Translations under genes and position numbers: made by a program
The notes under the pieces: model-generated
What the model was told of the DNA's origin: nothing
Databases searched by the model: none
What the model saw: the letters and a program-made list of their open reading frames with translations, nothing else
Origin: Cordia subcordata
Lineage: Eukaryota > Streptophyta > Magnoliopsida > Boraginales > Cordiaceae
Assembly: GCA_028554755.1 (NCBI GenBank)
Contig: JAPTOF010000016.1
Location: 14,318,001-14,382,000, forward strand
Reading direction: 5' to 3'
Length of the DNA: 64,000 nucleotides
In this document: positions 7,936-50,220 of the stretch, one piece after another
Position numbering within the stretch: the first letter of the stretch is position 1
Layout: every line of letters starts with the position of its first letter

Positions 7936-7988
7936 ACCCCTCAAGCTAAAAATACAACCATACAAAACAAAAGCAAAGCTTGAGGGGT
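7936..7988 (-). other. 3' UTR hairpin of OO-1
   Basis: Arms ACCCCTCAAGCT (7936-7947) and AGCTTGAGGGGT (7977-7988) pair perfectly over 12 bp around a 29-nt loop, about 52 nt before the poly(A). The same structure with the same spacing, but partly different bases, occurs in the other four ORF1-only elements. Confidence 0.85.
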
Positions 7989-8049
7989 GTGAAAATGAAA
8001 AACACAAAGGAAAACCTAATACAAATCAAAGAAAAGAAAAAACTAGGGG

Positions 8050-9200
8050 TCAAGTACAACCAAGGGGAGGAGGTGAATCATCAGTACCATTTGGGCCTTC
8101 AACAATCACTTCATTAACCTTTCCAAATTGGCTAACCTTCTCATTTTCTTTATTTTGCAAATCAGCTTGGCATGTTGCCAATTCATCTTCATTCTTCTCA
8201 TTAAGAGAACTTTTTCCTTCACCATTTGGATGATCATTATTAAGATTAAGAGAAGCACATCGGTTATTTCCCAATGGAGTTTGTGAAAAAGGGCTGAAGT
8301 CCTTTTTTTCAAGATTTGAGACTTGATTGGTGCTTGATTTAAGCGCAAAACTTGGAAAGGGCAATGGATTTGCATTATGAGTTCTTTTCCAAACTTTCTT
8401 TGTCTTTACACCTTTCCATTCCCCCACTCTATTCTTCTCCCCTTGGGAGGTCCTTGAAGCATTTTGGTTGAAAGTATTTAGACACAAGGAGAGTGAATGG
8501 CCCACAATTTTGCATTTGGAGCATACGTGTGGCTTCCAAGTGTATTCAACGTCAATTCTTACCCATTCTCTGTTTCGAAGTTTCACAAAAGTATGATCCC
8601 GCAACTCTTTATATAAGTCCAATTCAATACAAACTCTAGCAAATCCAAAAAAAGTTCTAGCTTCCATAAGCTTATCCATTTGCAATGGATAGCCCAAGGT
8701 ACTTGTAATATAACTCAATCCTTTTCTACTAATAAGTGAACAAGGGACATTTCTAAGCTTCACCCAAAGAGGAACTCTATCCCCACCAAATTTTATCATT
8801 TGCGCATTTGGATCCTATTTCCTAAGAAAAAGGGGGCGGTGGTTAACATGCCACATTTGCTCCATTACAAGATCACAATAATCAGCATTTTCAAACTTGA
8901 AAACAAAAACCCATTCTCGGCTGATTTTATATCAACTTTACCAAAGCTCTTCCAATGAGTATCAACCATTTTCTGGATGAGAAAGAATGGAGAAGCATTA
9001 CCAATAAATTATCGAATCAAACAATTTTGCCAATGCTCATCTCTCTCCTCAAAAACCTTAATAGAATGGAACTCAAGTTTACGAGAATTAATGAGATTAC
9101 CTAAGCAAGTGCGTTTCTAATCTTTGTTGATATTCCAGGCTGAACTTTGTCCATTTGCATATGACGGAAGGGAAGGTTGCTGAATGTCATTTGCTTCCAT
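8050..9200 (-). pseudogene. OO-1 ORF1, C-terminal half (type II DUF4283 + CCHC)
   Basis: From 8799 to 8050 the frame is open for 249 residues: WVKLRNVPCSLISRKG, LGYPLQMDKLMEARTF and FARVCIELDL (end of DUF4283), the knuckle CSKCKIVGHSLSLC (CX2CX4HX4C, intact), then a polar, Asn/Lys/Glu-rich tail ending PPPLGCT-stop at 8050. The N-terminal half of the DUF4283 (8800-9200) has stops and a frame break. At 9200 LINE-Y interrupts the gene; it resumes at 15097. The protein probably coats element RNA; a nucleic-acid-binding role is inferred from the domains. Confidence 0.85.
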
Positions 9201-9268
9201 TTTTTTTGCGAGAAAAGTAAGGAAATTCATTCATGAAAGAAACAACAAATTTACAAATACAAAACTGA

Positions 9269-15080: not shown

Positions 15081-15096
15081 TGTTATTTGCTTCCAT

Positions 15097-16373: not shown

Positions 16374-16776
16374 ACCTTCTTCTTCTTCTTCCTGAAGTGG
16401 ACCCGAGCCTCCATTGTTGTTCTTTGAAGTGTAATTGCTTGTAACAACATGAGGATTAGAAATAGAGTTTGAATATTTTTGCTCTATGGTAGAATGATTT
16501 TGCATAGGTGATACAAAGATCTTCCTGGCAATCTCTTTCTCAACTCTATGTTTTTGTGCAGCAGTTAAGCTTTGAGCAGGAGGAGAGTGAGGCTGAGAGC
16601 TTAGAATGAGACTTCTAACTTTGTCACATTTAGCCACATCTCTAAGCTTTTCTATCTCTTGAAACGTTTGGCCAGACTCAATAGCATCATAAACCTCCTT
16701 GAGTTTCTTACTAGTGGTTAAGAGAGCATCTTCACTAGTAAGAGGTAAAGTGGCTATATCAACCTCCCTGGGAGTT
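16374..16776 (-). pseudogene. LINE-A ORF1, middle piece
   Basis: Linker part of LINE-A ORF1 between the OO-2 and OO-1 insertions. Minus-strand translation: VDIATLPLTSEDALL, LKEVYDAIESGQTFQEIEKL, a Ser/Gln-rich segment and EEEEEGNLSNGQ, which continues in frame as KPLYLES at 7854. The block resembles FEAIESGKSFKEY of LINE-F and FKAIESGKTWKEYEEE of LINE-I, so YDAIESGxTF is a conserved amphipathic segment of type I ORF1. At 16776 the frame passes across OO-2 to 18271. Confidence 0.8.
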
Positions 16777-16795
16777 CTCTTTTTTTCTTTTTTCC

Positions 16796-17781
16796 CATCA
16801 TGCCTAAAAAGAAAATTCATTTTAGCTAGGAAAAGTGCAAGAATCAAATCTATTAATGAAAAGCTCAAAGAGTCCTATGTAGAACTCCCTCAAAATGATG
16901 CTGAAAATCTTAAGCATGGTGGAAATGTTCCTCGCTTCATGCGTGAAAAATCCTCATCTTTGCTGGTTGTTGAAGATAAATCCACCACTAACTCAAGCCT
17001 TGAGTTCAAGTTAGCTTATGATGCTTGCTGTAACATTGGCTTCTCACCCCCCCCCCCTTTGGACCTCTATGATGAAGGGGAAGAATATTGGAAGCATTGT
17101 CTTGTTGGACAATTTTTAGGAGCCTCTTCACATTTCTTTCTAATTAGAAATATGGTTGAATATGCATGGAGGAAATTTGGTAGAATTGAAATCAAAACTA
17201 GAGGCAAAGGACTTTTCAAGTTTGAGTATGAAGAATATTGTCAAAAAGTCATTGACCAACTATGGCATGTCAACCATAGGCCACTCTTGCTTCGAAAGTG
17301 GGAACCAAATCTCCAATTTGTTAACTTGAAGTGTGACAAAGTTCCTATTTGGGTCAAACTTAGAGATGTGCCTTTTAGTCTTTGGTCTAGGAGAGGACTT
17401 GGATATGTTGCATCATTCATTGGAACACCATTGCAAATGGACTCCCTAACGGAGTCAAGAAGCAACCTTGAATTTGCCCGTGTTTGCATTGAGGTCAATT
17501 TGGAAGCAGAATTGCCGGAAGTTATTTTTCCAAAACTTAGGGATAGAACTAGAGCTAAAGTGAAAGTTGAATATGCTTGGCGTCCATCCAAATGCTCTAA
17601 ATGTAAGCTTGTTGGACACTTTGAAGATCGATGCCCCTTGACTGAAACTACACTTGACATACTCCCAAGGAATATGAAAGAAGTTCAAATGCCAAAGGAT
17701 CAAAATGAATGGACTTTTATTGGAAAAAAGCAGACAATAAGTACAGCTAACGTACGCCAAGCAAAAGAAGTTAAGAGCTGA
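16796..17781 (+). pseudogene. OO-2 ORF1 (type I DUF4283 + CCHC), almost open
   Basis: The longest open ORF1 here: about 325 residues run without a stop from LARKSARIKSINEKLK to the stop at 17781. The expected ATG at 16796 (MPKKK) is one frame off: its own frame stops after ten codons, so a small indel just after the start destroyed initiation. DUF4283: DLYDEGEEYWKHCLVGQFL, NMVEYAWRKFGRIEIKTRGK, WHVNHRPLLLRKWEPN, VPIWVKLRDVPFSLWSRRG. The knuckle CSKCKLVGHFEDRC is intact. Compared with OO-5 the linker between CNIGFS and DLYDEG is missing. Confidence 0.87.
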
Positions 17782-18152
17782 TCTAGCTCTCCAAACTCCC
17801 TTAGGAAAGATTGGAATTCACAAACTCACTCTCCAAATGTCTCTCAACCACATTCTCTAATGAAGACTTGCATCTCTTCAAAAATAAATAGCTCAACAAA
17901 GCATAGAAGCTACCATTTTGAAGCACTTGTTGTTGACGACAATAGAGAAGATTTGATGTCATCCCAAAGATCCCCGGCAGCAAATGAAGTAGATATTAAT
18001 GTTCCTTGTACTTAAAGATTTTATTTGCTACCTTTGATGTTGCTTTTCTTTTGGTTGTGTTTCTTCTTGTCTTTTTCCAATCCCTTGATTTGTTTGAATA
18101 TTGTTGCGGGATTGTTTATTTGCATTTTTATCTTGCTTGGTTGTTTTTCCTT
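17782..18152 (+). other. OO-2 3' UTR, 5' part
   Basis: Non-coding, T-rich on the plus strand, without conserved protein similarity in any frame. It leads into the 3' hairpin. Confidence 0.6.
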
Positions 18153-18205
18153 TTCCCCTCAAGCCAAATTGATGTATTGCAATGCTGTATCTTGCTTGAG
18201 GGGAA
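18153..18205 (+). other. 3' UTR hairpin of OO-2
   Basis: Arms TTCCCCTCAAGC (18153-18164) and GCTTGAGGGGAA (18194-18205) pair over 12 bp around a 29-nt loop, about 54 nt before the A tail. The lower stem (TT/AA) and upper stem (AAGC/GCTT) differ from OO-3 but remain paired. Confidence 0.85.
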
Positions 18206-18270
18206 TGGGGATGTCTTTGTACTTTTTTGCGATCAATGAAAAATTACTTTCTCCACAAAAAAAAAAAAAT

Positions 18271-22400: not shown

Positions 22401-22875
22401 TATGTTTTTCCTAAGAGTTGTTGACAAGTGCCTTATCAATTTCGCTTGCTATATGATTTACTTGCATGCTTTGGTTGGTCCATGTAAAGTGAGGACCAAA
22501 AATTTTGATTTCACATAAATTTGCTTGGCTGACATATTATTTGAAGCTCTATGCACTAGAAGGAATGCTCCATGATGAAGATCTATCACCACAATGTAGA
22601 ATTTCATTGAAATCCCTCAAAATGCAAAGTGGTCCTTTTAAACACCATTCACTCCATAATTTGATTGTATTCCAAAGGAGTCTTCTTCTTGATGGAGTGT
22701 TTCTACTGTAAACAAAGCCAATAAAAAATGAACGGCTGGTATGGAGAGAAATATGATAAAAAATACCTTGCTCCATGCTGTCAATAATGTTCATGTTGAT
22801 GTGATTTCTCCAAAAGAGCCAAATTCTTCCTTCTATATTCTCATCCATGTAGTTAGCAAAACCCAAGGTGTTGAG
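19464..22875 (-). pseudogene. LINE-C ORF2, main part
   Basis: Continues from 36531 (KFFSTLGF) into STLGFANYMDEN at 22875. EN motifs: LRDFNEIL (the Gly of GDFNE is Arg) and ISDHCPLILH. RT motifs: NQLAFIEGRLINENI, KVDIMKALDSLSWDF and a catalytic box reading FAND (20953-20964) instead of FADD. The C-terminal 314 codons (19464-20408) are open: FWDTLWSKWVHTNYI, HTPRHAFITWLAMHDRL, CIFCKMGCGTRDRLFFHC (zf-RVT, with H-to-R in the usual DHLFF). It ends with a stop at 19464. Several stops and frameshifts in the first two thirds. Confidence 0.88.
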
Positions 22876-22890
22876 TAGTTCTAATGATGC

Positions 22891-22902
22891 TTCTCTCTCT
22901 AG
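22891..22902 (+). promoter_or_regulatory. Pyrimidine box at OO-3 5' end
   Basis: TTCTCTCTCTAG 15 nt from the 5' end of OO-3. The same box is at 47535-47546 (OO-5), and its complement is near the 5' ends of LINE-Y (15044-15055), LINE-F (42280-42290), LINE-A (18543-18556) and OO-1 (about 16338-16353). Confidence 0.5.
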
Positions 22903-22984
22903 CAAATGTTCTCTCACCTCTCTCTACAATTTTCCAGCATTGACCACTTTCTTCCTTTTTTAATCACCACTATCTCCTTCACTA

Positions 22985-24871
22985 ATGGGAAAAAAGAAGA
23001 GATCTAGTGATTCCAAAACTAGAAAGAGTGCTAGACTTGCTTTTAAATACAACCATGGTAGCTATGAAGATGATGATGATGAATACTCCTTGGATTCGTA
23101 CATGGAACTCAAAAAGGCTTGTGAAACCATAAATGATTGCATGTCTTGCTCGGGTGCACTTACTTTTTCTCTCCAAAGTGTTCAAAAGCTTGAGAAGAAC
23201 TTAGATGATGCAAAAAGGCAACTCGTTCAAATCTTGATAAGGAAAAGTTCTCCTTCTCCTGGTTGTCATAGTTCCTCCAGCTCGAATCTTCATCTTTCTC
23301 AAGGAAATTCCATGGCAAATGAACTTGGACTTAGAGATCTTCAAGTTTCTCCCTCCTCTCTAAGAATTCATGGTCAAAGAAATGGTGATCCAAATATAGA
23401 GCATTTTTCAAGCTCGGCTATAGCTAACCATCTCGACATGGCAAGTGCAAAAAACTCAACAAATGTCACATCCACTCCTATTCTGAATGGTGCTTGTCGG
23501 AATCCTGATGAGATGGAGAACAAAATGGCAACAAAATATCATTATTTTCCATCTTCGATTGAGGGTGAAAAAGCTCCGAATTCTGGCCATTGTGGTTCAT
23601 TTTTCAATGCCAATGGACCAATGGATAATACACTTGTGACCAGCATGCATTTGATTGAGCAAGTACAACGTGCAGCCCCTTTTCCTAACCAGCAGTGTAC
23701 TTTTGCTACCATAATCAACCAAAGGATGATAACTCATCCTATTGGGAATGGTTTTGGTAGCCCAATTTCAAATTTGCAAGCATGTGAATAAGTTTTTTCC
23801 CCCCAAATTCAATCAGATGCTATTGGAATAGGACCAACATCCTTGGGTATAAATTCTGAACCTTTGTGTCCCATTCCCTTAAATTCGGCTATATCAAATG
23901 TGGCCCCCAATCCATGTGATAGGGACCTATATGTTCATTTCCCTCCCCTCCCCTCCAAACTAGGTCAGCAAGCTCTCTTTCCAAATTAGCAAGGCAAAAT
24001 GACATGGCAGCCATGTATGCAAAGGATTCTCTTCCTTTTAGTGCAAACGGGAATGTCTAAGATGAGCCTTCAAATGCCAATATTCAAAATTCCTCTCTTC
24101 CTCACCATCCTTTTGGAGTTCATGGTGATCTTTGCAGCCAATCTCAAGGTAATTTTCAGCCTCCTACTCAAAATAATGAGCCATAATTAGTTTGGAATAT
24201 TGATAAAAATTGGAAAGATGCATGCTTGGGTAAGCTTGGTAATTCACATAAGCTTGATTTTCATAATCCCACTTGTGAAAATGGTATTATTGGAGCTGCA
24301 CCGCCTATTGAAGTTTTTGAGGAGGGAGACGAGCATTGGAGATGTTGCTTGATTGGACAATTTATTGGTACCCCGCCTCCCTTTTTTTGGTCATTCGTAA
24401 AATGGTTGATTCACATTGGAAGATGTTTGGAAAAGTTGAAATAAAATCAACAGAAAATGGCTTTTATGTTTTCAAGTTTGTTAATGATGAATCTTGTGAT
24501 CTTGTCATGGAGCAATTATGGCATGTAAACCACTGACCCTCTTGCTTAGAAGATGGGATCCAAATGCACAGCTAATTAATTTTAGTTGGGATAAAGTTCC
24601 CCTTTGGGTCAAGTTAAGGAATGTCCCTTGTTCGCTAATCACTCGAAAAGGGTTAAGTTATATTGCTAGTACATTAGGTTGTCTATTACAAATGGATAAA
24701 CTTACTGAATCACGGACTTTTGTGGGCTATGCAAGAGTTTGTATCGAAATGGACCTTTCTAGAGAGTTGCCAGATCACACTTTTGTAAAGCTTAGGGATG
24801 AAAATTGGGCTAAAATTGAAGTTGAGTATGCTTGAAAACCTCTTGTGTGTTCAAATTGCAAGATTATGGGT
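22985..24871 (+). pseudogene. OO-3 ORF1, first part (type II)
   Basis: Starts at ATG 22985 with MGKKKRSSDSKTRKSARLAF (NLS-like), then an acidic block (YEDDDDEYSLDSYMELKKA) and a likely coiled coil (QKLEKNLDDAKRQLVQIL); the first 268 codons are open (to 23791). After a stop-rich linker, DUF4283 (24226-24835) reads FEEGDEHWRCCLIGQFIGTP, MVDSHWKMFGKVEIKSTENG, LLRRWDPNAQLINFSWDKVP, KLRNVPCSLITRKG and FVGYARVCIEMDLSREL. The knuckle begins CSNCKIMG and is cut there by Athila; it resumes GHSLSLCLN at 35866. One frameshift at about 24400 inside the domain. Confidence 0.88.
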
Positions 24872-26700
24872 TGGTGCATCTTTCAAGTGCAAGCTCTAAA
24901 AGACCCGCAAGCGTATGGATTGTGCAATATAGTGTGTACAAGTACGGGTATCGAACCACAGGGAGGCGTGAATAATGTGGGTGAATTCTATGCTTGGTGT
25001 TCTAGAAAGTACCAAAAAGAAAGATCTAAACTAGACATATTTTTGGGGTTTTGGATTATTGGGAGCTCTAGGTAAAGGAAATAAAACTAAACTATGAATA
25101 TGAACCCAAGTTGGTCAAAAGGGAACTAACAATTGAGAAGGGGTTAGGGTGACTTCGACATCTGAATGGGTAATTCTATACTCAAATGCTATGGGATTAA
25201 GGGATGATGGCTAACTAGCATGAGTGCTCTTAACTAGGTTGCTAGTTAGTGTCCTAATTTCCCCCTAGGACTCGGTGCGGGTCTATTCCTGGGCGGTGCC
25301 TCCTAGAGCTACGGCGTGGTCCTTATGACCTAGGGCCTCAAGAGTGACTAACTAACTTCCTAGGTGACTTAGAATGAACCTACCTTAGTACCTAAATCTT
25401 TGGCTGGATTTAAAGCCAAGACCTAGTGTTGCTAAGGTTGACTAAACTTATCCGAAAACCTATTGGCTAGATTTAAAGCCAAAGGAGACTCGGTCTAGAC
25501 TAGCTGTAAATTACACTTCATCATTCTAAGGTCACTACAGCAGGATTTGACTTGCTTGTGCGTTCATACATGTTCAAGGCCAAGGTGCTTGTGAATAATG
25601 GAACCTATTCAACTACCAAACATCGTCATGTTCAGTTCACACCATTAGAAATAATTAATAACCAACACGTATGTGTTATTGAAGTTATGCTCATTACTAG
25701 GCATGCAAATATACATATAGACATGAATAAAAGCATTACCCACTTCATAGCATCCACATATAAACACATAGACATGATTATAACATGGATTAGATGTGTT
25801 TAGTAACAAACAAACTTCAATTTATACACATATTACTCATCTAGGCATTTTATCAAACACTTAGACATGAATGAGAAAATATCCATTTGAACAAGAAAAT
25901 TCGAAACATGTATATGCATTCAGCCATCATATCCCATATCATAAGAGTATATAGTTAACCTATTACATAAGTTAAATCACCCTACACAAGTCTACTCAAT
26001 CATAATAGGAAATAGAATCAAAGAGAGATAATGAAGCTTCCCTTTCATCCTAGCTAATCTTGTACAAAGCTTTTGAGCAAACTTGATTCCAAATGTTTGA
26101 ACCCTCCAAATAAAGCCTGGTTCTTAGTGAGAAATGTGTGAAGAGTGTGGGTGAAGTGGGTGGGATCTAGGGTTAAGTGTGTGAGAATTTTAGGTGTGAA
26201 GTGTGTGTTAATATTCCAAAAAGTCCTTTTTTCTGCAAAATGGGGCACTATTTATATGTTCTCAGGCCTCTGGACCTAGCTCGACCAGCTTTCTAATGAT
26301 GCTCGTTGGATTGGCTGGTCGACCAGCTCAGGAGGGGTGATCGTCCAGCTATTTTTCGCACTTCTCTGGAGTGGCCGGTCGACCGGCTCTTTTTCCTTGG
26401 TCGTCCAGCTGACTTTCTTCCTCTATTCTTTGTCTTCTCGGCCTCTGGTCTTCTCTCTTAGACCCGTGCATTTCTCATCTTCATCACCTTTCAATCTTGA
26501 TCTTAACCCAAAGTTCACCTAAATGATTGAAAACAAGCAATTAGTGTAGCAATTTGTCTCTTAAACTCGATATGCACATTTGTTTACGCTTAAGCCTATT
26601 CTTATCAAAAGCACTACACTAATGCATCATTATGAGCACTCAACACCTCTAAAATATAGGTAAATGACAATGCAAACACACACAAAAACACAACACATCA
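24872..26700 (-). repeat. Athila 3' LTR (left copy)
   Basis: 1829 bp, TGGTG...ACATCA on the plus strand. It is near-identical to the right LTR, with scattered substitutions and a few small indels: it has extra bases near 26130 (an AAGAGTGTGGGTG stretch) and lacks a short CATCG-type insert near 26490. It keeps more CpG sites than the right copy in the palindrome cluster (26281-26410). The 83-codon reading frame at 25552-25803, conserved in the other LTR, has no recognisable domain and is probably chance. Confidence 0.95.
26248..26410 (-). promoter_or_regulatory. LTR TATA box with upstream palindromic repeat cluster
   Basis: On the minus strand ATATAAATAG (plus 26248-26257; 35401-35410 in the other LTR) is a good TATA box. 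Immediately upstream in that orientation lie five related units in 130 bp: TCGACCAGCT (26281-26290), the perfect 14-bp palindrome GCTGGTCGACCAGC (26314-26327), TCGTCCAGCT (26341-26350), the perfect palindrome GCCGGTCGACCGGC (26374-26387) and TCGTCCAGCT (26401-26410). They are CpG-rich in otherwise AT-rich DNA. A transcription-factor or methylation target role is inference. Confidence 0.6.
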
Positions 26701-26736
26701 ACACCCCAAACCTTCTCCTTGCTTGTCCTCAAGCAA
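26701..26736 (-). other. Polypurine tract and hairpin next to the 3' LTR
   Basis: Directly beside the LTR end (26700), ACACCCCAAACCTTCTCC on the plus strand is the complement of a purine-rich plus-strand primer site. It is followed by TTGCTTG-TCCT-CAAGCAA (26719-26736), a perfect 7-bp hairpin with a 4-nt loop. Confidence 0.7.
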
Positions 26737-27641
26737 GCCCAATCTTAAATTTTATTTCTAAAGCCGATACAATGGATTGCCTAAAGGATTAACTCTCTAT
26801 CAAAGTCAGTCTAAGAAACATAAAGAGGGCATTCCTATTGTGGAGAGATCCCCAAATCTCTTTGGATCCTCCATCTACTCATAAGGGGTCTCGTTCCTTG
26901 TAGGAATTTCCCGAGTAGCCAATCCACCACATGCCTAGGATTCTAACTCACGCACTCGGGATGTTGATATTTCATGCTCCCTCAACTAACATGGCCTCCC
27001 CAACATGCACCAAGCCTCAAAGACAAGAAGAGAGAATATACAAACACAATGGCTTATAAAAAGCCTTATTCACGTATCTACAAAGATGATAACTTGTGCT
27101 AAGTTGACATTGTGTCACTTATGCACTTATTCACTAACTTTTTGGTGCCTTTGGCTTTTCCTCTTTTTCACTTCATTATATATATATATATATATATGTA
27201 TATTTGCACCTTTTTGCCTTTTTCATTTTTTTGTTGAACTTTTAATGCTTTGTATTGCATTCAGAAAAAGAAAGAAAAAGAAAGGCTTTGGCACATCAAC
27301 AAGAACCAATCAAGGAAGGGGCATTCACATCAACAACCCTTTTCCAACACTCTTTCCTACCAAGCTATGGGGTGGCTACAAAGGTTATTCTTTCAAGGTT
27401 CTCACTCCCCACAACTTTGAAGGGCATCCCCTCCAAGACTTATTTTTCAAACCACTCAATTCATTTCTCCACAATGCCTCTCATCTTCATAAATCAATAA
27501 AGTTAATCACAAAATCCAACACAATGATCAACAAAGAAATAAATGACTCTATATGCATCAAAATTAAAAAATTTTCACCATTTTTAAACGCAGAATGCAA
27601 TCTACCCTAAGCAAGATATATAACAAGAAAACCAAACTCCT
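26737..27641 (-). other. Athila 3' non-coding region
   Basis: About 0.9 kb between two polypurine/hairpin modules. I see no env-like ORF with homology; the 201-codon frame at 27005-27610 (plus strand, antisense to the element) is T-rich and runs through a TA dinucleotide repeat (27177-27197), so I take it as chance. Athila elements often have an env-like ORF here; this copy does not. Confidence 0.6.
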
Positions 27642-29460: not shown

Positions 29461-29494
29461 TACCCTTCTTATCCCGGATTTCTATGTCAAACTC

Positions 29495-30763: not shown

Positions 30764-30802
30764 GCAAACTGAATGGTCTATACCTCTTAAATCATCAATT
30801 TT

Positions 30803-32254
30803 CTACCCTATAGCTTTCCTATGTTTCCTAAGGACTTCTAAGAGATGCTCCTCATGCTCACTAGAAAGACCGAAAGCTATGATGATCGGAAGGGTCTCAT
30901 TAGGGCTTAAGAATGCATATTTCAAATGATCAGGAAGGGGTTTAAGCTCTAAAGATGGGCTAGGATCAACCAAGGGGGACTTAACCTCAATATTATCAAT
31001 GGGGACATCACTAGAAATGAGACTAGAAGGATTAACCTTAATTGATTTATTAGTCAAATGGCTCTCAATCAAGGAAGTAGAAGCTACACATTTCCTCTCT
31101 AAGGTCTCCAAATCAAAACTAGACATCAATTCCTTAAATTTCCTCAATTCTTCTCCATCGGTCATAGTCTTCTCGATAATATCCTCAACACAAGAATCAA
31201 TCACATCCACCCTAAAGCACTCTTCTCTATCCTCTCCTCCTATACTAGCCCTATTCACCACCTCTGCAACTTTCATAGTGGATCTCAAATTCCCAAATTT
31301 CATCTCCAATATCCCCGACTTACAATGGATAATGGCATCTACAGTGGCAAGGAAGGGGCGACCTAGAAGAATGGGTGTAAAATGTCTAGAGTCATATCCT
31401 GAATCCATATCTAACACTATGAAGTCAACAGGGTACACAAACTCATCTACCTGGACCATAATGTCCTCTATCACACCCCTAGGTCTACGCTCAGACTTAT
31501 CAGCTAGCTGAAGAGTAACATGTGTAGGAGACAACTCACCTAGACCTGGCTGCTGATAAACAGAGTAGGGAATGAGATTCACACTAGATCCTAAATCTAA
31601 CAAGGCGTGATCAATTTGGGTCTCACGGATCCTACATGGAATGGTGAAGGCTCCAGGGTTACTCATCTTGGGCGGAAGGCCCGAAGTACAAATACTGCTC
31701 ACCTTCTTAGGAATGTTCGATGACCTATGTTTTCTTGTACAAAGATCCTTAAAGAACTTAGAATAAGAGGGGATGGAAATGATCGCATCTATCAAAGGAA
31801 GATTGACCTTAAGGTCCTTAAGATGCTCTAAAACCTTAAAGAACCTAGAATCCTTACTACGTGTAGGCCTCTCTAAGGCGGATGGAAAGGGAACTCTAGG
31901 CTTTATACCTCTAGATACATGGGAGTCATCAATAGGCTTTTTTTCCTCCCGACATGGGCGAGAAGTACTACTCTCTCCATGATCTCTAATGGGCTCATCT
32001 CTCTCAACAGGACCTTCTCTAGAATTTCCCTCAACAGGGCTACCATGTGGTGCTCTAGACTTGGAAGGACCACAAGGTGCAGGCATTGCAAAGTCAACTC
32101 CTACCTTATTATCCACTACCCGACTGCTCCTAAAAGTAGTGACAGCTTTAGCCTGGGCCTGAGGGGGATAAGTGGTATCGGTGGAGGAACAGGACTCGAC
32201 TCTAAGGTTCACCTCTGGCTGAGAAGGCAATTTCCCGAGGTCTCTAGCACTCAA
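30803..32254 (-). pseudogene. Athila retropepsin (aspartic protease) region
   Basis: An open stretch of 483 codons. A low-complexity, charged first third (31800-32250) is followed by LKDLKVNLPLIDAIISIPSY (31745-31810) and the retropepsin core HALLDLGSSVNLIPYSVYQQ at about 31560-31610. The active-site triad reads DLG-S, the usual Athila variant of DTG/DSG. It is followed by VHVDF-type strands (VYPVDFIVLDM) and PILLGRPFLATVDAIIH. Cuts the Gag-Pol precursor. It is in frame with gag (across stops near 32290-32402) and with RT (stop at 30803). The final part links to RT. Confidence 0.88.
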
Positions 32255-32288
32255 CTAACTAGTAATCTGTCTTAACTGTGCCTCAAAC

Positions 32289-33753
32289 CTCGCCATTTGC
32301 TACCTATTTTCTGCCAATTCTTGTTGTTGGCTCTAAATGAACTGCATTATCTTTATCATGTCATTACTAGGAGGTTCGCTACTAGAGGGAGCAGGCAAAG
32401 CCTAGGGTTGAGGAGCACCAGTAAGACAGGGTTGATTAACATGATAGAAACCTGGGGGATATCGAGGACGGGGTCGCTGCTGGGGTGGAATCTGAGGATG
32501 TGAACTAGACTCATGCTGTCCTTGTCTCCAAGAAAATTTCGGGTTATCCCTCCAACCCGGATTGTATGTGTTCGAGTATGGATTATACTCACGAGAATAA
32601 CCTTGTGTGGCGCATACTTGCTCTTTCATGAATTCAGGAAATTGGGATGCTAAAGGGCAAGCTATGGTCTCATGAGATGACTCGGAGCACAATGCACAAA
32701 CTTCAACAACTAAAGGGGCGAAGGAAGAACCTAAAGAACTAGTCCTATGACCTTGGGATGAAATGGACAAAGAAATGAATTGATCTAGCTTATTCGTCAA
32801 AGCCTCAACCTTAGCGGGTAAGTCTAAAGAAATTCCAACCTCACTAACACTTCTCTTGTTACCTCCCCGACTAGACCTTTCCATTGCAAAATTTTGAAAA
32901 GAATTTTCAGCCATCATTTCTATTTTCTCCCATGCCTCAGTCGGTCTCAAAAGATAGAAGCCACCACTGGAGGCGGCATTGACCATCATCCTATTTTGTT
33001 CATTCAAGCCTTGAAAGAAGTATGGCATTAGGTCATGATTGCCGTACCCGTGGTGCGGACATTGTCTAAGAAGATCCTTGAACCTTTCCCAAGCCTCATG
33101 AAAAGATTCTAGGTCATGTTGGGAGAAAGTCATATGGCTGTCCTAAGGTCGGTCATCTTGGCCATGGGATAAAATTTTTGAAAGAACTTAGATTGAAGCT
33201 CAGCCCATGTAGTAATGCAACCGTTAGGTAAGCAGTGTAACCAAGTCCTAGCCTTGTCCTTAAGAGAGAAAGGAAACAATCTTAGACGTATGACCTCTTG
33301 AGAGACATTGGGGACATGGAGAATGGAACTCATCTCAACAAAATCAGTGATATGATCTAGAGAACTCTCATTGCTTCTCCCGTAGAAGGAGGGAAGCATG
33401 GCCAACATATTAGGCTTAATCTCAAAGTTCGTTTCCCCCAAGCCCTGAATTTGAATAGCCAAATTAGGCTCAAAGGCTTCGGGAAGAAAGAATTGCCTAA
33501 GAGTGGGTTCCCTATCTATGGGTGGGTCCGGTCTACGGGGCTCTCGCCTAAAATGAGCTTGGGCTTGATGCCCAATGTGATCATGAGGTGGAATGGGATT
33601 CATTGGGGGATTGGGAGGATTAGGAGGATGATTGGGATCGGCCATCTCCTCAAGTAGATCTCCTAAATTCCTTAAATGTCTAGCAATTCTATCAGGTTCA
33701 GGATTAAGAGGAACTAGGTGATTTCTAAGGGATCTCCTACCAAGCATGCACAA
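32289..33753 (-). pseudogene. Athila gag
   Basis: Capsid protein. First part (33130-33753): Pro/Asn-rich, then FEIKPNMLAMLPSFYGRS, EVIRLRLFPFSLKDKART and ITTWAELQSKFFQKFYPM. A frameshift at about 33133 moves it to the second frame (32402-33133): FHEAWERFKDLLRQCPHHG and GLNEQNRMMVNAASSGGFY. A zinc knuckle CALCSESSHETIAC (CX2CX4HX4C, about 32665-32705) and a basic, Pro/Arg-rich tail end at a stop at 32402. Downstream in the same frame QQELAENR and MARFEAQLRQI (32290-32340) look like a helical Gag tail cut by stops. Confidence 0.9.
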
Positions 33754-34003
33754 TCTATCCTAACTCCGGCCACTTCTACCCCCGAAAACTTCAATACTCC
33801 TAAAACTATAGCAAATAAACCACAATCCTAGAAAGTCTACAAAAATAAAGAAAAAAGCTGAAATAGATAAACAAAAACTAAAGCAAGATAATATAAACAA
33901 TAAAAAAGATAAGCAAAATCTAAACAAACTATAAAGGAAAAACAAGAAAAGCAAATAAAGCAACTGCCAAAACACACAAGCAAAGAATGCAAATCACCGT
34001 GCC
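33754..34003 (-). other. Athila leader between PBS and gag
   Basis: About 250 nt of A-rich (plus strand) untranslated leader without conserved coding. It may contain the packaging signal; nothing specific can be shown. Confidence 0.5.
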
Positions 34004-34021
34004 GCCCCAGCAACGGTGCCA
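34004..34021 (-). other. Primer-binding site, tRNA-Asp type
   Basis: On the minus strand TGGCACCGTTGCTGGGGC starts 6 nt after the 5' LTR. It is close to TGGCGCCGTTGCCGGGG, the plant tRNA-Asp primer site used by Athila/Tat elements; two C-to-T-type changes are consistent with CpG decay. Confidence 0.85.
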
Positions 34022-34027
34022 AGAACT

Positions 34028-35860
34028 TGGTGTGTCTTTCAAGTGCAAGCTCTAAAAGACCTGCAAGCGTACGGATCGTGCAATATAGTGTGTACAAGTG
34101 CGGGTGTCGAACCATAGGGAGGCATGAATAAAGTAGGTGAATTCTATGCTTGGTGTTCTAGAAAGTGCCCAAAAGAAAGATATAAACTAGACATATTTTT
34201 GGCGTTTTGGATTATCGGGAGCTCTAGGTAAAGGAAATAAAACTAAATTACGAATATGAAAAATGGGAACATAAGTTGGTCAAGAGGGAACTAACAATTG
34301 AGAAGGGGTTAGGGTGACTTCGACTTATGAATGGGTAATTCTATACTCAAATGCTATGGGATTAAGGGATGATGGCTAACAATCATGAGTGCTCTTAACT
34401 AGGTTGCTAGATAATGTCCTAATTTCCCCCTAGGACTCGGTGCGGGTCCATCCCTAGGCGGTGCCTTCTAGAGCTACGGCGTGGTCCTTATGACCTAGGG
34501 CCTCAAGAGTGACTAACTAACTTCCTAGGTTACTTAGAATGAACCTACCTTAGTACCTAAACCTTTGGCTGGATTTGAAGCCAAGACCTAGTATTGCTAA
34601 GGTTGACTAAACCTATCCGGAAACCTATTGGCTGGATTTAAAGACAAAGGAGACCCGGTCTAGACTAGCCCTAAATTACACTTTGTCATTCTAAGGTCAC
34701 TACAGCAGGATTTGACTTGCTAGTGCGTTCATACATGTTCAAGGCCAAGGTGCTCGTAAATAATGGAACATATTCAACTACCAAACATCGTCATGTTCAG
34801 TTCACACCATTAGAAATAATTAACAACCAGCACGTATGCGTTATTGAAGTTATGCTCATTACTAGGCATGCAAACATACATATAGACATGAATAAAAGCA
34901 TTACCCACTTCATAGCATCCATATATAAACACATAGACATGATTATAATATGGATTAGATGTGTTTAGTAACAAGCAAACTTCAATTTATAGACATGTTA
35001 CTCATCTAGGCATTTTATCAAACACTTAGACATGAATGAGAAAGTATCCATTTGAACAAGAAAATTCGAAACATGTATATGCATTCAGCCATTATATCCC
35101 AAATCATAAGAGTATATAGTTAACCTATTACATAAGTTAAATCACCCTACACAAGTCTACTCAATCATAATAGGAAATAGAATGATAGAGATAATGAAGC
35201 TTCCCTTTCATCCTAGCTAATCTTGTACAAAGCTTTTGAGCAAACTTGATTCCAAATGTTTGAACCCTTCAAATCAAGCCTGGTTCTTAGTGAGAAATGT
35301 GTGTGAAGTGGGTGGGATCTAGGGTTAAGTGTGTGAGAATTTTAGGTGTGAAGTGTGTGTTAATATTCCAAAAAGTCCTTTTTTTCTGCAAAATCGAGCC
35401 CTATTTATATGTTCTCAGGCCTCTGGACCTAGCTCGACCGGCTTTTTAATGATGCTCTTTGGATTGGCCGATCAACCGGCTCTGTAGGGGTGATCATCCG
35501 GCTATTTTTGGCACCTCTCTGGAGTGGCCGGTCAACCGGCTCTTTTTCCTTGGTCATCCAGCAAACTTTCTTCCTCCATTCTTTGTCTTTTCGGCCTCTG
35601 TTCTTCTCTCTTAGACCTATGCATTTCCCATCTTCATCACCTTTCATCGTCCAATCTTGATCTTAACCCAAAGTTCATCTAAATCATTGAAAACAAGCAA
35701 TTAGTGTAGCAATTTGTCTTTTAAACTCGATATGCACATTTGTTTACGCTTAAGCCTATTCTTATCAAAAGCACTACACTAATGCATCATTATGAGCACT
35801 CAACACCTCTAAAATATAGGTAAATGACAATGCAAACACACACAAAAACATAACACATCA
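34028..35860 (-). repeat. Athila 5' LTR (right copy)
   Basis: 1833 bp, promoter-bearing LTR in element orientation. It matches the left LTR throughout. In the palindrome cluster (35434-35572) the CpG of the central GTCGAC is changed to GTCAAC or ATCAAC in two of the five units, and TCGTCC to TCATCC in two, all transitions. TATA box complement at 35401-35410. Confidence 0.95.
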
Positions 35861-35865
35861 TAGGT

Positions 35866-36323
35866 CATTCACTCTCTTTATGTCTCAATGCTATCGATCC
35901 AAAAGTGCCAAAATTTCGCCATAGTGATAAGAAAAAAGAAGAATGGAAAGGTGTAAAGTCAAAGAAAGTTTGGAAAAGAACACTTAAGGCTGATCCAAAG
36001 CCTTTTTCAAGTGCTATGCGTCCTTGCACCACTCAAGTCTCAAAGAAAGAAAATGAGCATTTGGCCACATCATAAAAATATCGGTTGGGCATTAATCATT
36101 TTGCAACATTCATACCTTGTGATAAAGATAAGAAAGATGAGGAATTTTGCTCTCTTGAAGAGATAATCAAAGTTGATTCACCAAATTGTCACCTTAAAGG
36201 GAAAATGAAGATCTTATGCGGGATAAAATTGTTGGAAGGAAAAGAGTGGAAGATGCAGATTGGGGAAGCATTAAAGAGGCTCCACCCGAGAATGAAGTTA
36301 CCTCGCTGCCGCCTTTTGATTGA
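35866..36323 (+). pseudogene. OO-3 ORF1, C-terminal part
   Basis: Resumes the CCHC knuckle as GHSLSLCLN after Athila, giving CSNCKIM + GHSLSLC (CX2CX4HX4C) when joined. Then a charged tail (EEWKGVKSKKVWKRT matches KGVKTKKVWKRTH of OO-1) and an end at SLPPFD-stop (36321-36323). At least one stop lies in the tail (36075). Confidence 0.8.
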
Positions 36324-36415
36324 TTTTGTTTGTTCACTTTCATTTGATGTAACTTTGTTTCAATTAGTTTCTTTTTATTGTAATTGGAATCTTTTCCTAG
36401 TTGTTTTTTTTCTTG

Positions 36416-36466
36416 CCCCTCAAATCTAAAATTGGCTAGTTTTGTTATATCTTATGATTTGAGGGG
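36416..36466 (+). other. 3' UTR hairpin of OO-3
   Basis: CCCCTCAAATC (36416-36426) pairs with GATTTGAGGGG (36456-36466) over 11 bp around a 29-nt loop, about 50 nt before the A tail. Confidence 0.87.
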
Positions 36467-36530
36467 TTTGGGATGTAATCTTACAAATTTGCAGTTTATA
36501 TATCTTACTTACCTCGCAAAAAAAAAAAAA

Positions 36531-36686
36531 ACCCAAGGTGCTGAAAAATTTGGCAATAAGATTATCTTTATTCACCATGGTCTCCAAAAGACAAAAACAA
36601 TCCAAAATTTGCTTGTTGATTAAAGCTTTCATTTCTTTTTGCTTGCTAGGGGTGTTAAGACCTCTAATATTCCATGAGCAAATCAT
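36531..36686 (-). pseudogene. LINE-C ORF2 start
   Basis: The first 52 codons of LINE-C ORF2: ATG at 36686, MICSWNIRGLNTPSKQKE (EN motif I), LDCFCLLETMV (motif II, with Lys replaced by Met) and KFFSTLGF. It continues in frame at 22875 once OO-3 and one TSD copy are removed. Confidence 0.87.
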
Positions 36687-43633: not shown

Positions 43634-43693
43634 TTTTTTTTGCGAGGTAAGTAAGATTAAAATTACCGCAAATTTGTAATGATACATCCAAAA

Positions 43694-43744
43694 CCCCTCA
43701 AATAAAAAATACAAACAAAACTAACCAAATCTAGATTTGAGGGG
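43694..43744 (-). other. 3' UTR hairpin of OO-4
   Basis: CCCCTCAAAT (43694-43703) pairs with ATTTGAGGGG (43735-43744) over 10 bp. The eleventh pair seen in OO-3 is here A/G; inside it the spacing is again 29 nt. About 53 nt from the tail. Confidence 0.85.
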
Positions 43745-43826
43745 CAAGTAATACAACAAAAAAGGTCCAAAGACAAAATAAAAAACAATAAAGCAAGAAA
43801 CATCCAAGGAAGACAAAGAAAAGAGA

Positions 43827-46133
43827 TCAAGTCTCCCAACCCTTTGAAATTGGTGCTTCAAGAGTAGCTGGAAAACCCGAGACTTCCTTTTGCCTTCCAA
43901 GCTCGTGTATTTGATTCAATCCATTCATTTCTTGATGTTCCTTCCCTAGTGAAAATGGCTCAACTTGAAAATTTTCCTTCACTTGGCTGCCTATTTTGTT
44001 TTCAATCTCATTTACATGGCTGCCCATCTTGCTTTCCTCCTCATTTACCTTATCATTGTGGTATTCACATTTTCATCAAGGCAAATCTATTACATGTTGA
44101 AGATTCAATAGACAAATTTGCCAAGGGCTTCTTTGCTGGTTTGGGAGGAAGAATTACATTTGCAAAAGGAGTAGGGTTTATATCTTGCACCTTCTTCCAC
44201 ACTTTTTCATTCTTATAGCTTTTCCAATCTCCTTCTCTCTTTTCAAATTTTTGCACTTGACAGGGGGCATTTGCATGTGACATATTGGGACATGTTTTAA
44301 TAGAGTGACCAACAATCTTGCAAGTGGGGCAAACAAGTGGTTTCCAAGCATATTCCACATCAATTTTAGCCCATTCCCCATTTCTCAACTTAACAAAAGT
44401 ATGATCCAGAAGTTCTTTGGAAAGGTCCAACTCAATACAAACTCTAGCAAAACCAACAAATGTTCTAGATTCCGTCAATCGATCCATTTGTATTGGGTAA
44501 CCAAGTGTGCTTGCAATATAGCTAAGACCACTCCTTGTAATAAAAGAACATGGCACATTTCTTAACTTGACCCACAAAGGAACTTTCTCCCAACTAAAGT
44601 GCAACAATTGTGCATTAGGATCCCATCTTCTTAATAATAGAGGTCTATGATTTACATGCCACATTTGTTCCAAAATTTGGTCACAATAATGATCATTTTC
44701 AAACTTGAATACAAAGAAACCATTTTCAGCTGATTTAATTTCAACTTTTCCAAAGTTTTTCCAATGCAAATCCACCATTCTTCTAATAAGGAAAAAAAGA
44801 GGGGGTTGATCAAGGAATTGTCCAATCAAACAATGTTTCCAATGTTCATCACCTTCCCTAAAAACTTCTTCAGGTGGTTCAGCCCCCAATATGCCATTTT
44901 CCATTAAGATAGGTTCATGGAAATCAAGCTTAGTAGGGTTAGAGAGATTACCCAAGTAAGTGCCTTGCCAATCTTTGCAAGAGTTCCATGCATGTTGGTT
45001 TAGAGCTTGATGAGCATGGCTAGATTGTGTAGCAATTTGTTCCTCATGTTTGGAAGCTCCATGATCTTCTTGACAATTGATTCCATGCCCCTTAAAGTGT
45101 GAAGTACATTGTGGAGAAGTAGGGGCTGGAGTGGTGGGCGTTGACTTGGCACAGGATTTTAAATTTTCAAATAAGTTAGCATCTACATCATGAGAAGAAG
45201 ATGAATTGGCTGCCAAGTTATTTTTCCTTAAAAGCTCACGTGACAAAGGGGGAAAATCCACCAAATTTGGAGTAGAGTAAAGAGGGCTGAAACCTTTCTT
45301 TGGCGGGTAGGATTCATTTGGACCAAGAGCATTTGAATTTATTTGGTATTGACCAGCAGCCAAGGAATTATCCATTGGGGAGCGGTGTGTTGTCAACTTT
45401 GGGGAGTTATCCAATGGATGGGGATGTGTTGTCGGCCAAAAGGTTGAGGAATACACATTATGTCTTGAAAAAGTACCTTGAAAAGATGAAATGGCAGTCG
45501 GGTTATTGCACAACATTTCTTTAGCCAAAGGACAAGAGGATAAAAGCTTGGACTTGACTGTACTTGTTTCTTCTTCCACCCAATTTTCAAAGGCTTTTTC
45601 ATGGTAAAAATCTCCATGGAACCCATTCTTTGAAGCATTTGATTGATTCTCCAAGGCAAGAAGAGTATTTTGAGTGCCATATTGTTGCGGTTCAAATGCT
45701 TTATCCTTAAGTGGAGAAGAAATATAAAGGTTAACATCCAAATCTTCTTCATCTCCATCCTCGATTTGAATCTCTTGAGAGCTCTTAGGATTTGTGCCTT
45801 GATGACCATGACTTCTTCTAAGAAGACTTTGAACAAGCTCCTTCTTAGCGTTATCCAAACTTTCTTGGAGTTTAAGCTCATTTGAAGTATGGCAAAAAGA
45901 TGGACTAGGTCTTGAGAGAAAGCCATAGAAGATCTAGATTCGTCTTCATCAAAGAAAGATGGAGAGGAGTGTTTAGCAAGATTTTTGCTTACAATGCTAC
46001 ACGCTTTGTGAAGCTCCAAGATGGATTCGGATGAGTAGTCTTCTTCCTCTTCATAGTTGTCAAAAGCATTCCTTGAAGCTAATCTTGCACTCTTTCTTGT
46101 TTTGGATGCACTTGATCTTTTCTTTTTGCCTAT
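43827..46133 (-). pseudogene. OO-4 ORF1 (type II DUF4283 + CCHC), well preserved
   Basis: The start position (46133-46131) is ATA instead of ATG: GKKKRSSASKTRKSARLASR, then an acidic/helical block (YEEEEDYSSESILELHKACS). A frameshift near 45870-45900 follows; then 597 codons are open (45858-44065): LDNAKKELVQSLLRRSH helical segment, long Ser/Asn/Pro linker with VDFPPLSRELL, and DUF4283 with VFREGDEHWKHCLIGQFL, RRMVDLHWKNFGKVEIKSAE, LLRRWDPNAQLLHFSWEKVP, KLRNVPCSFITRSG and FVGFARVCIELDLSKEL. The knuckle CPTCKIVGHSIKTC (about 44280-44325) is intact. A second break near 44065 leads to a tail ending SKGWET-stop at 43827. Confidence 0.92.
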
Positions 46134-46168
46134 GGAAGTTGCAAAAGAAGGTATATGTGCTCTTAAAG

Positions 46169-47514: not shown

Positions 47515-47622
47515 ACTTCATAGGAACATGAAGTTTCTCTCTCTAGAACTCTTGCTCTCACTTCTCTCTAAAATTACTCCTCTCAACTACCAAGTTTTCT
47601 CTTCTTAATTTCAACTTCAATC

Positions 47623-50071
47623 ATGCCAACGAAGAAGAATCACACTTCTTCTAGAAAGAGTGCAAGGATAAAAGCCATAAATGTTAAGCTCAAGGAATCA
47701 TACCAAGAACTCACCAATTGGTGCTAAAAATAAAGGAAAAGTGGCTGGTAATTTCGGTTCTTCCCCTTCTTTGGTTGAACATTCTTCCCCATCTTTCATG
47801 GATGAAGACGAGTTTTCAACCCACTCAAGTTTTGAATTTAAAATGGCATATGATACTGTGTATAGCATGGGTTCTACTCAACCCTTTTCTCCCACCCATG
47901 GTCAAGATACTTCTTCTAGCATGGTCAAGACTAAATTTCATAAGAGATCCTTGGAAGAAATGGATAGGATAATCGAAGAAGCTCAAAAACTTTGTCCCCC
48001 ATCAGTTGGTTGAGGCAACTTCCTAGAAGAGAAGTACAATATTTCCAAAAAAGAGCTCATTCAAAGCTTGACCCGCAGCAGCTATCTTAGGTTAGATGGT
48101 CATCCATACAAAAATTCATCTTTAAAATCTCCACAACCTGAGCTGAAGAAAATTTCTCCTATGGCTGCTGAAGTTTCTAAGGCTCCACTTTCAAACGTGC
48201 AAAATGGATTGTTTTCTTCTCCTCTTGAAGTGGAGTCCACTAATCTTGAGGCAAATCCCCCATCATCTTTAAGAAAATCCGGAGAAATTGGCTCAAAGAA
48301 GGCTTCGGATAATGAACTTGGAAGAAACGGGGAAGATGACACTTTTAACTGGACAATACCTTTGCCCGTTGGAAATTTACTCATAGCTGCCAACACTTCT
48401 GATATTAATAGACAACATGTCGGCCAAGATTTGAATATTTCTAACCATGTCACTTGTCAGTCGACTCCTAAGCACATCTCACCATCATTTTCACATGGGA
48501 AAGAGACAACACCTTTTTACCCATTGGATTGTTGTGATGATCCAGCAGGTACTCTCGGTGCAAGTGTGCTAGCTCAAAATTCAAACTTACGAGTTGGTTT
48601 TCAATCGACTTGCCTTGTTCAATTTAGCTCCAATCAGAAAATTACTCTCAAATAAACATTGTGGAAAAATGCTTTACCCCATATGCCATGATGGATTTAC
48701 AACAAGGAATTTATAAAGCTCAATTCCCTCCCTTGCAAGCTAAATCAGCAACCAACTCAACAGATGCAAATGACGTGCCTACCATATCTGATTTTAATGC
48801 ACCAAAAACCTCATCTTTCCAGATCATTTCTCATGCAAATGGAGGCACTCTCCAGCAGCATTACACCTCTCAAAATGCTTGGAACACTGTTAAGGATTGG
48901 CAATCAACTTATGTTGGTAAACTCTCTTACTCTTCAAAGCTTAATTACTTTAAACCTATTGAAGAGAACGGTTTTATTAGGGCTGCTTCCCCTGAAGATG
49001 TGTTTTTAGAGGGAGATGCTTATTGGAAACATTGCCTAATTGGTCAATTTTTGGATAAACCTCCCCCCTTCTTCTTTATTAGAAGAATGGTTGACTACCA
49101 TTGGCAAAAGTTTGGGAAGGTTGAGATTATGTCCGCTGAAAATGGTTTTTTGTCTTCAAGTTTGAGAATGATGAGTTTTGTGATCAAGTGTTGGAACAAA
49201 TGTGGCATGTAAATCACCGGCCTCTCTTACTTAGAAGATAGGATTTAAGTGCTCAATTGATGCATTTTAGTTGGGAGAAAGTGCCATTGTGGGTCAAGCT
49301 TAGAAATGTCCCTTGTTCTTTAATCACTCAAGGAGGTTTAAGCTACATTGATAGTACCTTAGGCAACCCTCTTTATATGGATAAGTTGACGGAATCACGT
49401 ACTTTTGTTAGATTTGCAAGGGTTTGCATTGAAATGGATCTTTCAAAAACTCTCCCAAATTGCACTTATGTTAAGTTGAGGAATGGTGAATGGGCTAAGA
49501 TTGATGTTGAATATACATGGAAGCCCCTTGTTTGTCCTTCTTGCAAGATTATGGGTCACACCCTTTCAACATATCCAAATGCATCTTAAGCAGATGACTA
49601 TCAACAAAGCTCTAAGGTTAAAAAGATTGATGGAGAATGGCATGGGTCCAAACTGAAGAAGACTTGGAGAAGAATTATGAATGAGAACCAACACCATTTA
49701 CAAGTGTTTTCCTTAAATCTAAAGGTAATCAACCTCTCAATATGGTCAATAGTCCCCCAGCCCTAACACCCAAGAATCCAATGAATCACAATAGGTTTAT
49801 TGCCCTTGATGTTAATAATGTCATCTCAAATAAAGCTCGGGTTAATGAAGGAAATTTGGGTGAAATTGAAGTGGAAAATTCTAGAAATATGGAAAAAGAT
49901 GCCCACGATGGTGTTAGGTGAGGAAAAAATGAAAAGAATGGTGGCAGAATTCTTGAAGAATCTGATTGTGGTAGGGAAGAGAAATTGGAGGGAATAGGTT
50001 TAATTGTAGTTGAAGGAAGCATAAAGGAGACTCCACCCGAGATTGAAGATACCCCGCCTTCTCAAGATTGA
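47623..50071 (+). pseudogene. OO-5 ORF1 (type II DUF4283, knuckle mutated)
   Basis: The ATG at 47623 gives MPTKKNHTSSRKSARIKAIN, closer to OO-2 than to OO-3 at the N-terminus, then stops at about 47709; the next frames continue (FEFKMAYDTVYSMG, SLEEMDRIIEEAQKL; 48068-48655 linker). DUF4283 (48960-49530): VFLEGDAYWKHCLIGQFLDK, RRMVDYHWQKFGKVEIMSAE, KLRNVPCSLITQGG, FVRFARVCIEMDLSK. The knuckle reads CPSCKIMGHTLSTYP: the fourth ligand Cys is Tyr. The tail ends PEIEDTPPSQD-stop (50069-50071), matching the OO-3 tail. At least four lesions. Confidence 0.87.
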
Positions 50072-50169
50072 TTTTGATTACACAATGTTTTCACTTTCAT
50101 TTGATGTTACTTTGTTTCAATGGTTTCATTTATTGTAATTGGAATCTTTTCCTTGCTTTTTTTTTCTTG

Positions 50170-50220
50170 GCCTTCAAATCTAGATTTGGTTACTATTATT
50201 GTAACTTGTGATTTGAGGGG
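50170..50220 (+). other. 3' UTR hairpin of OO-5
   Basis: CCTTCAAATC (50171-50180) pairs with GATTTGAGGG (50210-50219), 10 bp with one G-T pair, around a 29-nt loop and about 53 nt before the A tail. Confidence 0.82.

Follow-up and report, generated by a model that had tools for sequence, protein, structure and literature searches.

Background

What the reverse transcriptases of plant L1 elements recognise on their own RNA can be approached through a 64,000-nt stretch of the Cordia subcordata genome (472 Mb in 62 contigs; assembly GCA_028554755.1, contig JAPTOF010000016.1, positions 14,318,001 to 14,382,000), hereafter called the window. The window consists of nested plant L1 DNA whose open reading frames (ORFs) encode DUF4283 (ORF1), Exo_endo_phos, RVT_1 and zf-RVT domains; the closest reverse transcriptase match came from Shorea, with 42% identity over its length, and a search with ORF1 returned two Rhododendron proteins only. 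Alongside full long interspersed nuclear elements (LINEs), the window holds five elements that encode DUF4283 and no ORF2, here termed ORF1-only elements (OOs), each with a hairpin in its 3′ untranslated region (UTR). Two questions follow: whether this hairpin is a selected RNA structure, and what it may do in elements without ORF2. Comparison of 75 copies from the same genome gives good support to selection for pairing of the stem, acting on the sense strand.

A hairpin selected for pairing

When the five OO 3′ ends are aligned, the hairpin falls at the same place, about 50 nt before the A tail. It occupies positions 7936-7988 in OO1 (minus strand; 12 bp, loop of 29 nt), 18153-18205 in OO2 (plus strand; 12 bp, loop 29), 36416-36466 in OO3 (plus strand; 11 bp, loop 29), 43694-43744 in OO4 (minus strand; 10 bp, loop 31) and 50171-50219 in OO5 (plus strand; 10 bp including one T-G pair, loop 29). 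All five stems were thus recovered exactly where the original prediction, made from the letters of the window, had placed them, with the orientation of OO1 and OO4 corrected to the minus strand. Two of its details gave way. The outer CCCCTC/GAGGGG pairs, described as constant, are not quite so: OO5 has CCTTCAAATC/GATTTGAGGG with a T-G pair, and these pairs also change with compensation in genome copies, for example to ACCCTCCAAGTC/GACTTGGAGGGT in the fetched stretch L023. The loop, described as an invariant 29 nt, has that length in four window copies and 31 nt in OO4, and it varies from 21 to 41 nt across the 75 copies (mode 28-29, with two outliers of 53).

An inverted-repeat scan of the window (Watson-Crick arms of at least 9, loop of 25-33, arm GC of at least 0.4) detected 6 inverted repeats, whereas 30 first-order Markov shuffles gave a mean of 0.83 and at most 3. 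The reported hairpins account for four of the 6; OO5 escaped this strict scan because its stem includes the T-G pair. Rfam yielded 0 matches at the gathering score within the window.

Genome copies were collected in two ways. The pattern CCCCTCAA-N28-44-TTGAGGGG produced 486 genome matches, and its reversed control none; from the 50 places listed among these matches, 20 were fetched with 10 kb and 20 more with 1.27 kb of sequence. A profile with the stem masked was then run over the fetched stretches and the window, giving 59 matches at E-values up to 1e-6, 55 of them distinct. A second set was chosen by a loop and tail motif regardless of the stem; this motif had 103 forward and 35 reverse matches, with many places counted more than once through overlapping starts, against 1 and 1 for the control, and 20 distinct places were taken from the first 100 matches listed, most repeats of one subfamily being left out. 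The total sample comprises 75 copies, 65 of which are non-redundant at 95% identity.

Run on an alignment of 48 of the 65 non-redundant copies, RNAalifold predicts this 11-bp stem alone, with changes on both sides in some copy at 9 of the 11 pairs. In the structure-pair count, 94.5% of cells are paired and 50 cells carry changes on both sides, compared with 12.7 in shuffles; none of 500 shuffles reaches the real stem in any of five pairing measures, and sliding the stem by 1-3 columns drops the paired cells to 31-64%. On a FastTree tree of the 65 copies, double-compensatory branch events number 15 for the stem and between 0 and 2 for the ten slid controls; a further 46 events in the stem are single consistent and 47 breaking. 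G-U pairs exceed A-C mismatches by 57 to 13 in fixed columns (33 to 12 without the outermost pair), which argues for selection on the sense RNA as opposed to the antisense strand or DNA; the count from the stem finder, which favours G-U over other mismatches, was left out in favour of these fixed-column counts.

The stem is no product of the search pattern, since at least 10 of the 11 pairs are still formed in 21 of the 25 copies in which the exact pattern is missing. This level of pairing is reached by 70 of all 75 copies, by 1-2 of 75 in five letter shuffles and by 2 of 20 LINE tails. Among 31 clusters of copies sharing exact 8-mers, the next two inner pairs, which lie outside the search pattern, are Watson-Crick in 24 and 25 clusters, compared with 14.0 and 14.5 in shuffles (0 of 2000 as high); the third inner pair, at 19 versus 16.8, is not above the shuffles. 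In a tree-based null of our own kind (substitutions redistributed on the tree; not R-scape), two inner stem pairs rank first and second among 8128 column pairs, with values of 0.0014 and 0.0035 when only the 12 proposed stem pairs are considered. The compensatory change reported from the window is upheld on the 75 copies, with the reservation that the best pair, at an E-value of 0.97 over all 8128 pairs, falls short of significance there, and the branch events, RNAalifold, the shuffle tests and the pairing in pattern-lacking copies bear out the claim of a selected RNA structure. Another small hairpin, which follows the main stem (TGTA/TACA, TGG/CCA), seemed to covary and was rejected, its folding (mean z of -0.46) being hardly better than that of shuffles.

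Around the stem, the alignments show a recurrent TTGTTGTATC-like motif near the 3′ arm and a TTTGG-like 3′ flank; the loose TTGTTGTATC pattern occurs somewhere in 72 of the 75 sequences and is not confined to the loop. The distance from hairpin to A tail is mostly 45-58 nt, with an AATAAA-like sequence between the two in many copies. Immediately before the A tail, OOs and LINEs share a CTTACTTnnYYCGC-like 14-mer, which is altered in several of the LINE tails.

Carriers of the hairpin and their ORF1

To assign each hairpin to a carrier, we took the nearest upstream domain on the same strand, searching 1.1-1.5 kb (less in two copies). This was ORF1 in 44 of the 55 copies of the first set and 16 of the 20 of the second, zf-RVT in 2 and 1, and no domain in 9 and 3. 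ORF1 is accordingly nearest in 60 of 75 copies, or in 57 once three copies are removed that borrow the ORF1 of a neighbouring OO (L011 at 9423, L012 at 9402 and L023 at 882, identical to the neighbour over 155-163 residues). Of the copies with zf-RVT nearest, L020 turned out to hold two elements, a LINE that has its own tail and, after it, a 5′-truncated OO, and in L062 the domain lies 744 nt upstream.

OO3 and OO4 are discrete insertions with an A tail, a target-site duplication of the L1 type and no ORF2. OO3, delimited by self-comparison and its target duplication (AAAACCCAAGGTG at 22858 and 36528), consists of a 5′ piece at 22872-24870 and a 3′ piece with the hairpin and A tail at 35861-36531, both on the plus strand and split by a long terminal repeat (LTR) element. 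OO4, at 43634-46151 on the minus strand, is near full length; its 597-aa ORF (44065-45858) contains DUF4283, together with a CCHC knuckle matched at a score under the Pfam cut-off, and its 14-nt target duplication is TATATGTGCTCTTA. Once joined, the flanks of either element align, at about 69-73% identity, with LINE copies of the window that are uninterrupted. These duplications, with the 57 copies in which an OO's own ORF1 is nearest, agree with the original description of the carriers as ORF1-only.

Four groups can be told apart among the ORF1 sequences: the main OO group, A; two small ones, also of OOs, B and C; and one of LINEs. Mean amino acid identity is 48% between A and LINE, 69% between B and LINE, and 52-53% between A and either B or C. 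An unrooted tree of 67 ORF1 sequences, which still includes the three copies credited with a neighbour's ORF1, supports the LINE group (12 sequences) at 89, B with L029 at 99, C at 99, B with L029 and LINE at 88, and B with L029, C and LINE at 100; with the root on the LINE branch, a single origin of the OO lineage is possible. Three candidate LINE ORF1s (LINE_L010_8932, LINE_L022_3479 and LINE_L024_5702) turned out to belong to OOs, each lying ahead of an APE unrelated to it, and were excluded from the identity, tree and dN/dS (nonsynonymous to synonymous rate) analyses. The OO ORF1 evolves under constraint: group A has a median dN/dS of 0.21, from 50 usable pairs; with three duplicates and the joined OO3 still included, 60 pairs gave 0.20. 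OOs are most likely a diverged, ORF1-only L1 lineage mobilised in trans, comparable to the HAL1 elements discussed below.

LINE tails and a LINE/OO chimera

LINE tails were examined for the same hairpin. After 4 of 24 rows were dropped (two antisense OOs, the chimera described below and one false tail), 20 tails were counted, and 9 further zf-RVT matches had no tail in reach. The OO hairpin was found in 0 of these 20 tails, in line with its reported absence from the full LINEs, the exception being a single chimeric LINE with the 3′ end of an OO. In the window, the minus-strand LINE terminus at 9204-9221 illustrates the comparison, with CTTACTTnnYYCGC-A(n) and no OO hairpin.

LINE tails have features of their own. 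They share a conserved block, TTTGTAAATTGTGG, followed by GA-ATAT and often by TTGTATAGG, roughly 70-105 nt before the tail and near the place that the hairpin holds in OOs (for example at 60189-60317 of the window and L020:5243-5371, both minus strand). A candidate LINE hairpin has the opposite polarity (GGGG...CCCC), a loop of about 21-26 nt and TTGTATA in several copies; its mean pairing score is 14.6, compared with 12.9 +/- 0.57 for shuffled partners and a largest value of 14.6 among 300 shuffles. It amounts to a hint, RNAalifold having found no consensus structure in 19 of the 20 LINE tails.

The chimera lies on contig C1 (L021:1040-9948, minus strand of that stretch, together with L045, an adjacent stretch). 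Within the LINE 3′ UTR its sequence passes into the 3′ end of an OO, including the hairpin and the A tail, and its own LINE tail does not resume within the next 1 kb. A perfect 15-nt duplication, AAGAATCAGCTTGAG, flanks the whole chimera, standing at the LINE 5′ end and again after the OO tail. A second LINE, which has an ordinary tail, is inserted into the chimera and splits it; the LINE part of the chimera is 98.5% identical to this second LINE over 4399 bp and 99.1% over 1391 bp, and for this reason the chimera seems to be a recent one-off switch. The simplest reading is that reverse transcription began on OO RNA and then moved to LINE RNA; a hybrid transcript is the alternative. Under either, the chimera supports initiation by LINE-type machinery at an OO 3′ end.

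What the hairpin may do

We put the probability at roughly 0.55 that the hairpin, with the terminal 14-mer, marks OO RNA for borrowed LINE machinery, which accepts it and starts on the OO tail. On this reading of the sequences, OOs would supply an RNA-binding-type ORF1 protein themselves and depend for ORF2, which provides endonuclease and reverse transcriptase, on the full LINEs that share their genome. Their RNA would be marked by the stem-loop of 10-12 bp in its 3′ UTR and by the terminal CTTACTTnnYYCGC-A(n), the LINE machinery would accept the marked RNA, and target-primed reverse transcription would start at the OO tail. The hairpin itself is presumably what is bound, and presumably by ORF2p. 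The earlier suggestion of a signal for a partner ORF2 thus stands as far as the chimera supports the use of OO 3′ ends by LINE machinery; the hairpin's part as that signal stays presumptive, because LINEs and OOs also share the 14-mer-like end and the A tail.

Several points weigh against this reading. The shared 14-mer and A tail could be sufficient. The sampled LINE tails are without the hairpin, and no consensus structure emerged from 19 of the 20, so any need of the enzyme for the hairpin would not extend to its own RNA. The chimera is a single case among 75 copies, in 317 kb of partly overlapping sequence from the window and the fetched stretches. As to the carriers, the nearest upstream domain belongs to a LINE in 3 of the 75 copies and is the ORF1 of a neighbour in 3 others, and in 12 none could be recognised. 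The two best pairs of the tree-based null, at E-values of 0.97 and 2.4 over all 8128 pairs, are below significance. An in-frame stop interrupts 26 of 45 OO ORF1 stretches, from which it follows that many copies are dead; the low dN/dS would then have to stem from the lines of descent between copies, and 50 of the 703 group A pairs were usable for it, the rest being too short or outside the dS limits.

The main rival, which we hold to be possible at clearly lower odds, takes the hairpin as the binding site of the OO's own ORF1p (DUF4283 with its CCHC-like knuckle) for packaging in cis, with ORF2p arriving through ORF1p and reading the 14-mer and A tail. It would account for constraint on ORF1 in elements without ORF2, which favours a job of ORF1p on its own RNA, and it suits both the tie of the hairpin to ORF1-only elements and the 14-mer common to OOs and LINEs. 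It fits less well with a hairpin that accompanies OO ORF1 groups just 52-53% identical to each other (A versus B or C), and with LINE ORF1s that are 69% identical to group B and yet go with no hairpin in the sampled tails.

Rather improbable is an autonomous LINE family that bears the same hairpin and is the true partner of OOs, with the L021 chimera as its member or founder. The chimera is indeed a full-length LINE with an OO tail and its own target duplication; however, 0 of 20 other LINE tails have the hairpin, and the chimera looks like a recent one-off. Slightly less probable again is a role in transcript stability or 3′-end processing, with the cleavage site set about 50 nt further on and template choice unaffected: the hairpin-to-tail distance and the AATAAA-like sequence found in many copies would suit it, but the LINEs of the same genome, which lack the hairpin, also end in a similar motif and an A tail, and its confinement to ORF1-only elements would go unexplained. 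That there is no selection on RNA at all, the stem being an inherited inverted repeat that persists through recent common ancestry or functions at the DNA level, could appeal to the all-pairs E-value of 0.97 and to some recent, nearly identical subfamilies, but is already contradicted by independent compensatory changes, the excess of G-U over A-C and the pairing of 21 of 25 pattern-lacking copies, and is very improbable.

A lasting two-part retrotransposition system of ORF1-only and ORF1+ORF2 elements can be tentatively imagined, though we think it doubtful: the OO lineage would have split into several ORF1 groups while retaining a hairpin tag of its own where LINEs have their conserved 3′ block. 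A single reverse transcriptase would then serve both RNA tags, and switches of template between them would yield LINEs with new 3′ ends.

Genomic distribution and other elements of the window

Of the 50 listed places, 40 are on contig C1, 34 of them within 24.56-25.75 Mb of its 42.3 Mb. Hairpin copies thus cluster in about 1.2 Mb of C1, and they also occur near the ends of C5, C8, C10 and C22, a clustering that may fit the expectation for centromeres. In one OO subfamily the hairpin regions are identical, or almost so, on C1, C5, C12, C21, C24, C26 and C30, a sign of recent spread.

Target duplications were examined for all five window OOs, being clear in OO3 and OO4, short in OO2, weak in OO5 and not found in OO1. 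OO1 (7871-9199, minus strand) has DUF4283 in the ORF at 8050-8799 and an A tail at 7884-7871; OO homology extends up to 9137, and its uncertain 5′ limit adjoins a LINE A tail at about 9200. No target duplication was found at its ends. OO2 (16777-18269, plus strand), also with DUF4283, has a putative 12-nt target duplication, TCCCTGGGAGTT, at 16765-16776 and again after the tail; if it is one, OO2 is 5′ truncated and the ORF at 16699-17781 begins outside it. OO5 (47515-50286, plus strand), delimited by self-comparison and OO homology, has the 10-nt A-rich repeat AAAAAGATGA as a weak candidate duplication. By these limits OO3, OO4 and OO5 are about 2.5-2.8 kb long.

The element inside OO3 is an LTR retrotransposon (24871-35860) with LTRs 93% identical and gag and weak protease-like matches. 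Two more OO ORF1-like pieces lie on the minus strand at 1549-1006 and 151-1 (region 1-1552), and their 3′ ends were not found in the window. At 59085-59112 (minus strand), an A tail preceded by the LINE/OO-like terminal motif CTAACTTACCTCGC stands between an ORF1-like stretch (about 59400-59702) and an APE ORF (58052-58954), as if an ORF1-bearing end abutted another LINE.

Relation to known elements

The HAL1 (half-L1) elements of mammals have ORF1, no ORF2, an A tail and target duplications, and are presumed to be mobilised by L1 ORF2p in trans. OOs resemble them as L1-type elements with ORF1 and no ORF2, an A tail and target duplications; they differ in belonging to plant L1, in their DUF4283-type ORF1 and in the covarying 3′ hairpin.

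Recognition by mammalian L1 is described as relaxed, with the poly(A) tail as its object, and that of plant L1, in the sections of the same source covered here, as stringent in one monocot lineage and presumably relaxed in others (PMC3747384). The parts of that work by Ohshima covered here give monocot L1 lineage 1a and ZmSINE2/3, which are short interspersed nuclear elements (SINEs), a stringent-type 3′ hairpin with compensatory mutations, within a conserved last ~45-50 nt common to LINE and SINE, with a conserved UCU inside the loop and CGAG on the 3′ side of the stem (PMC3747384). As far as those parts go, the two cases have in common a plant L1-clade 3′ hairpin, compensatory changes and a non-autonomous user of LINE machinery. 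The OO hairpin, in contrast, stands about 50 nt before the tail, with a TTGTTGTATC-like loop motif, a TTTGG-like flank and no UCU or CGAG; it is absent from 20 of 20 LINE tails, the terminal 14-mer alone being shared apart from one chimera, and its carrier is a protein-coding non-autonomous element.

The Celine elements of poplar, tea and ash are, in the parts of their description covered, autonomous centromeric LINEs with a DUF4283 ORF1 (PMC11288735), sharing with the present elements the plant L1 type, this ORF1 and nested insertions clustered in one region. They differ in being autonomous; 'stem-loop' occurs 0 times in the main text of that paper, 'nonautonomous' is used there generally, and ORF1-only partners are not mentioned in the parts covered (PMC11288735). 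In the openly licensed PMC papers searched, subscription papers being outside this scope, no account of an ORF1-only plant L1 with such a hairpin was found.

The OO elements indicate that an ORF1-only strategy of the HAL1 kind exists in plants as well. With a covarying hairpin, a constrained ORF1, LINEs without the hairpin and a natural switch from OO to LINE in one genome, they offer a ready pair of templates for the study of recognition by plant L1 reverse transcriptases.

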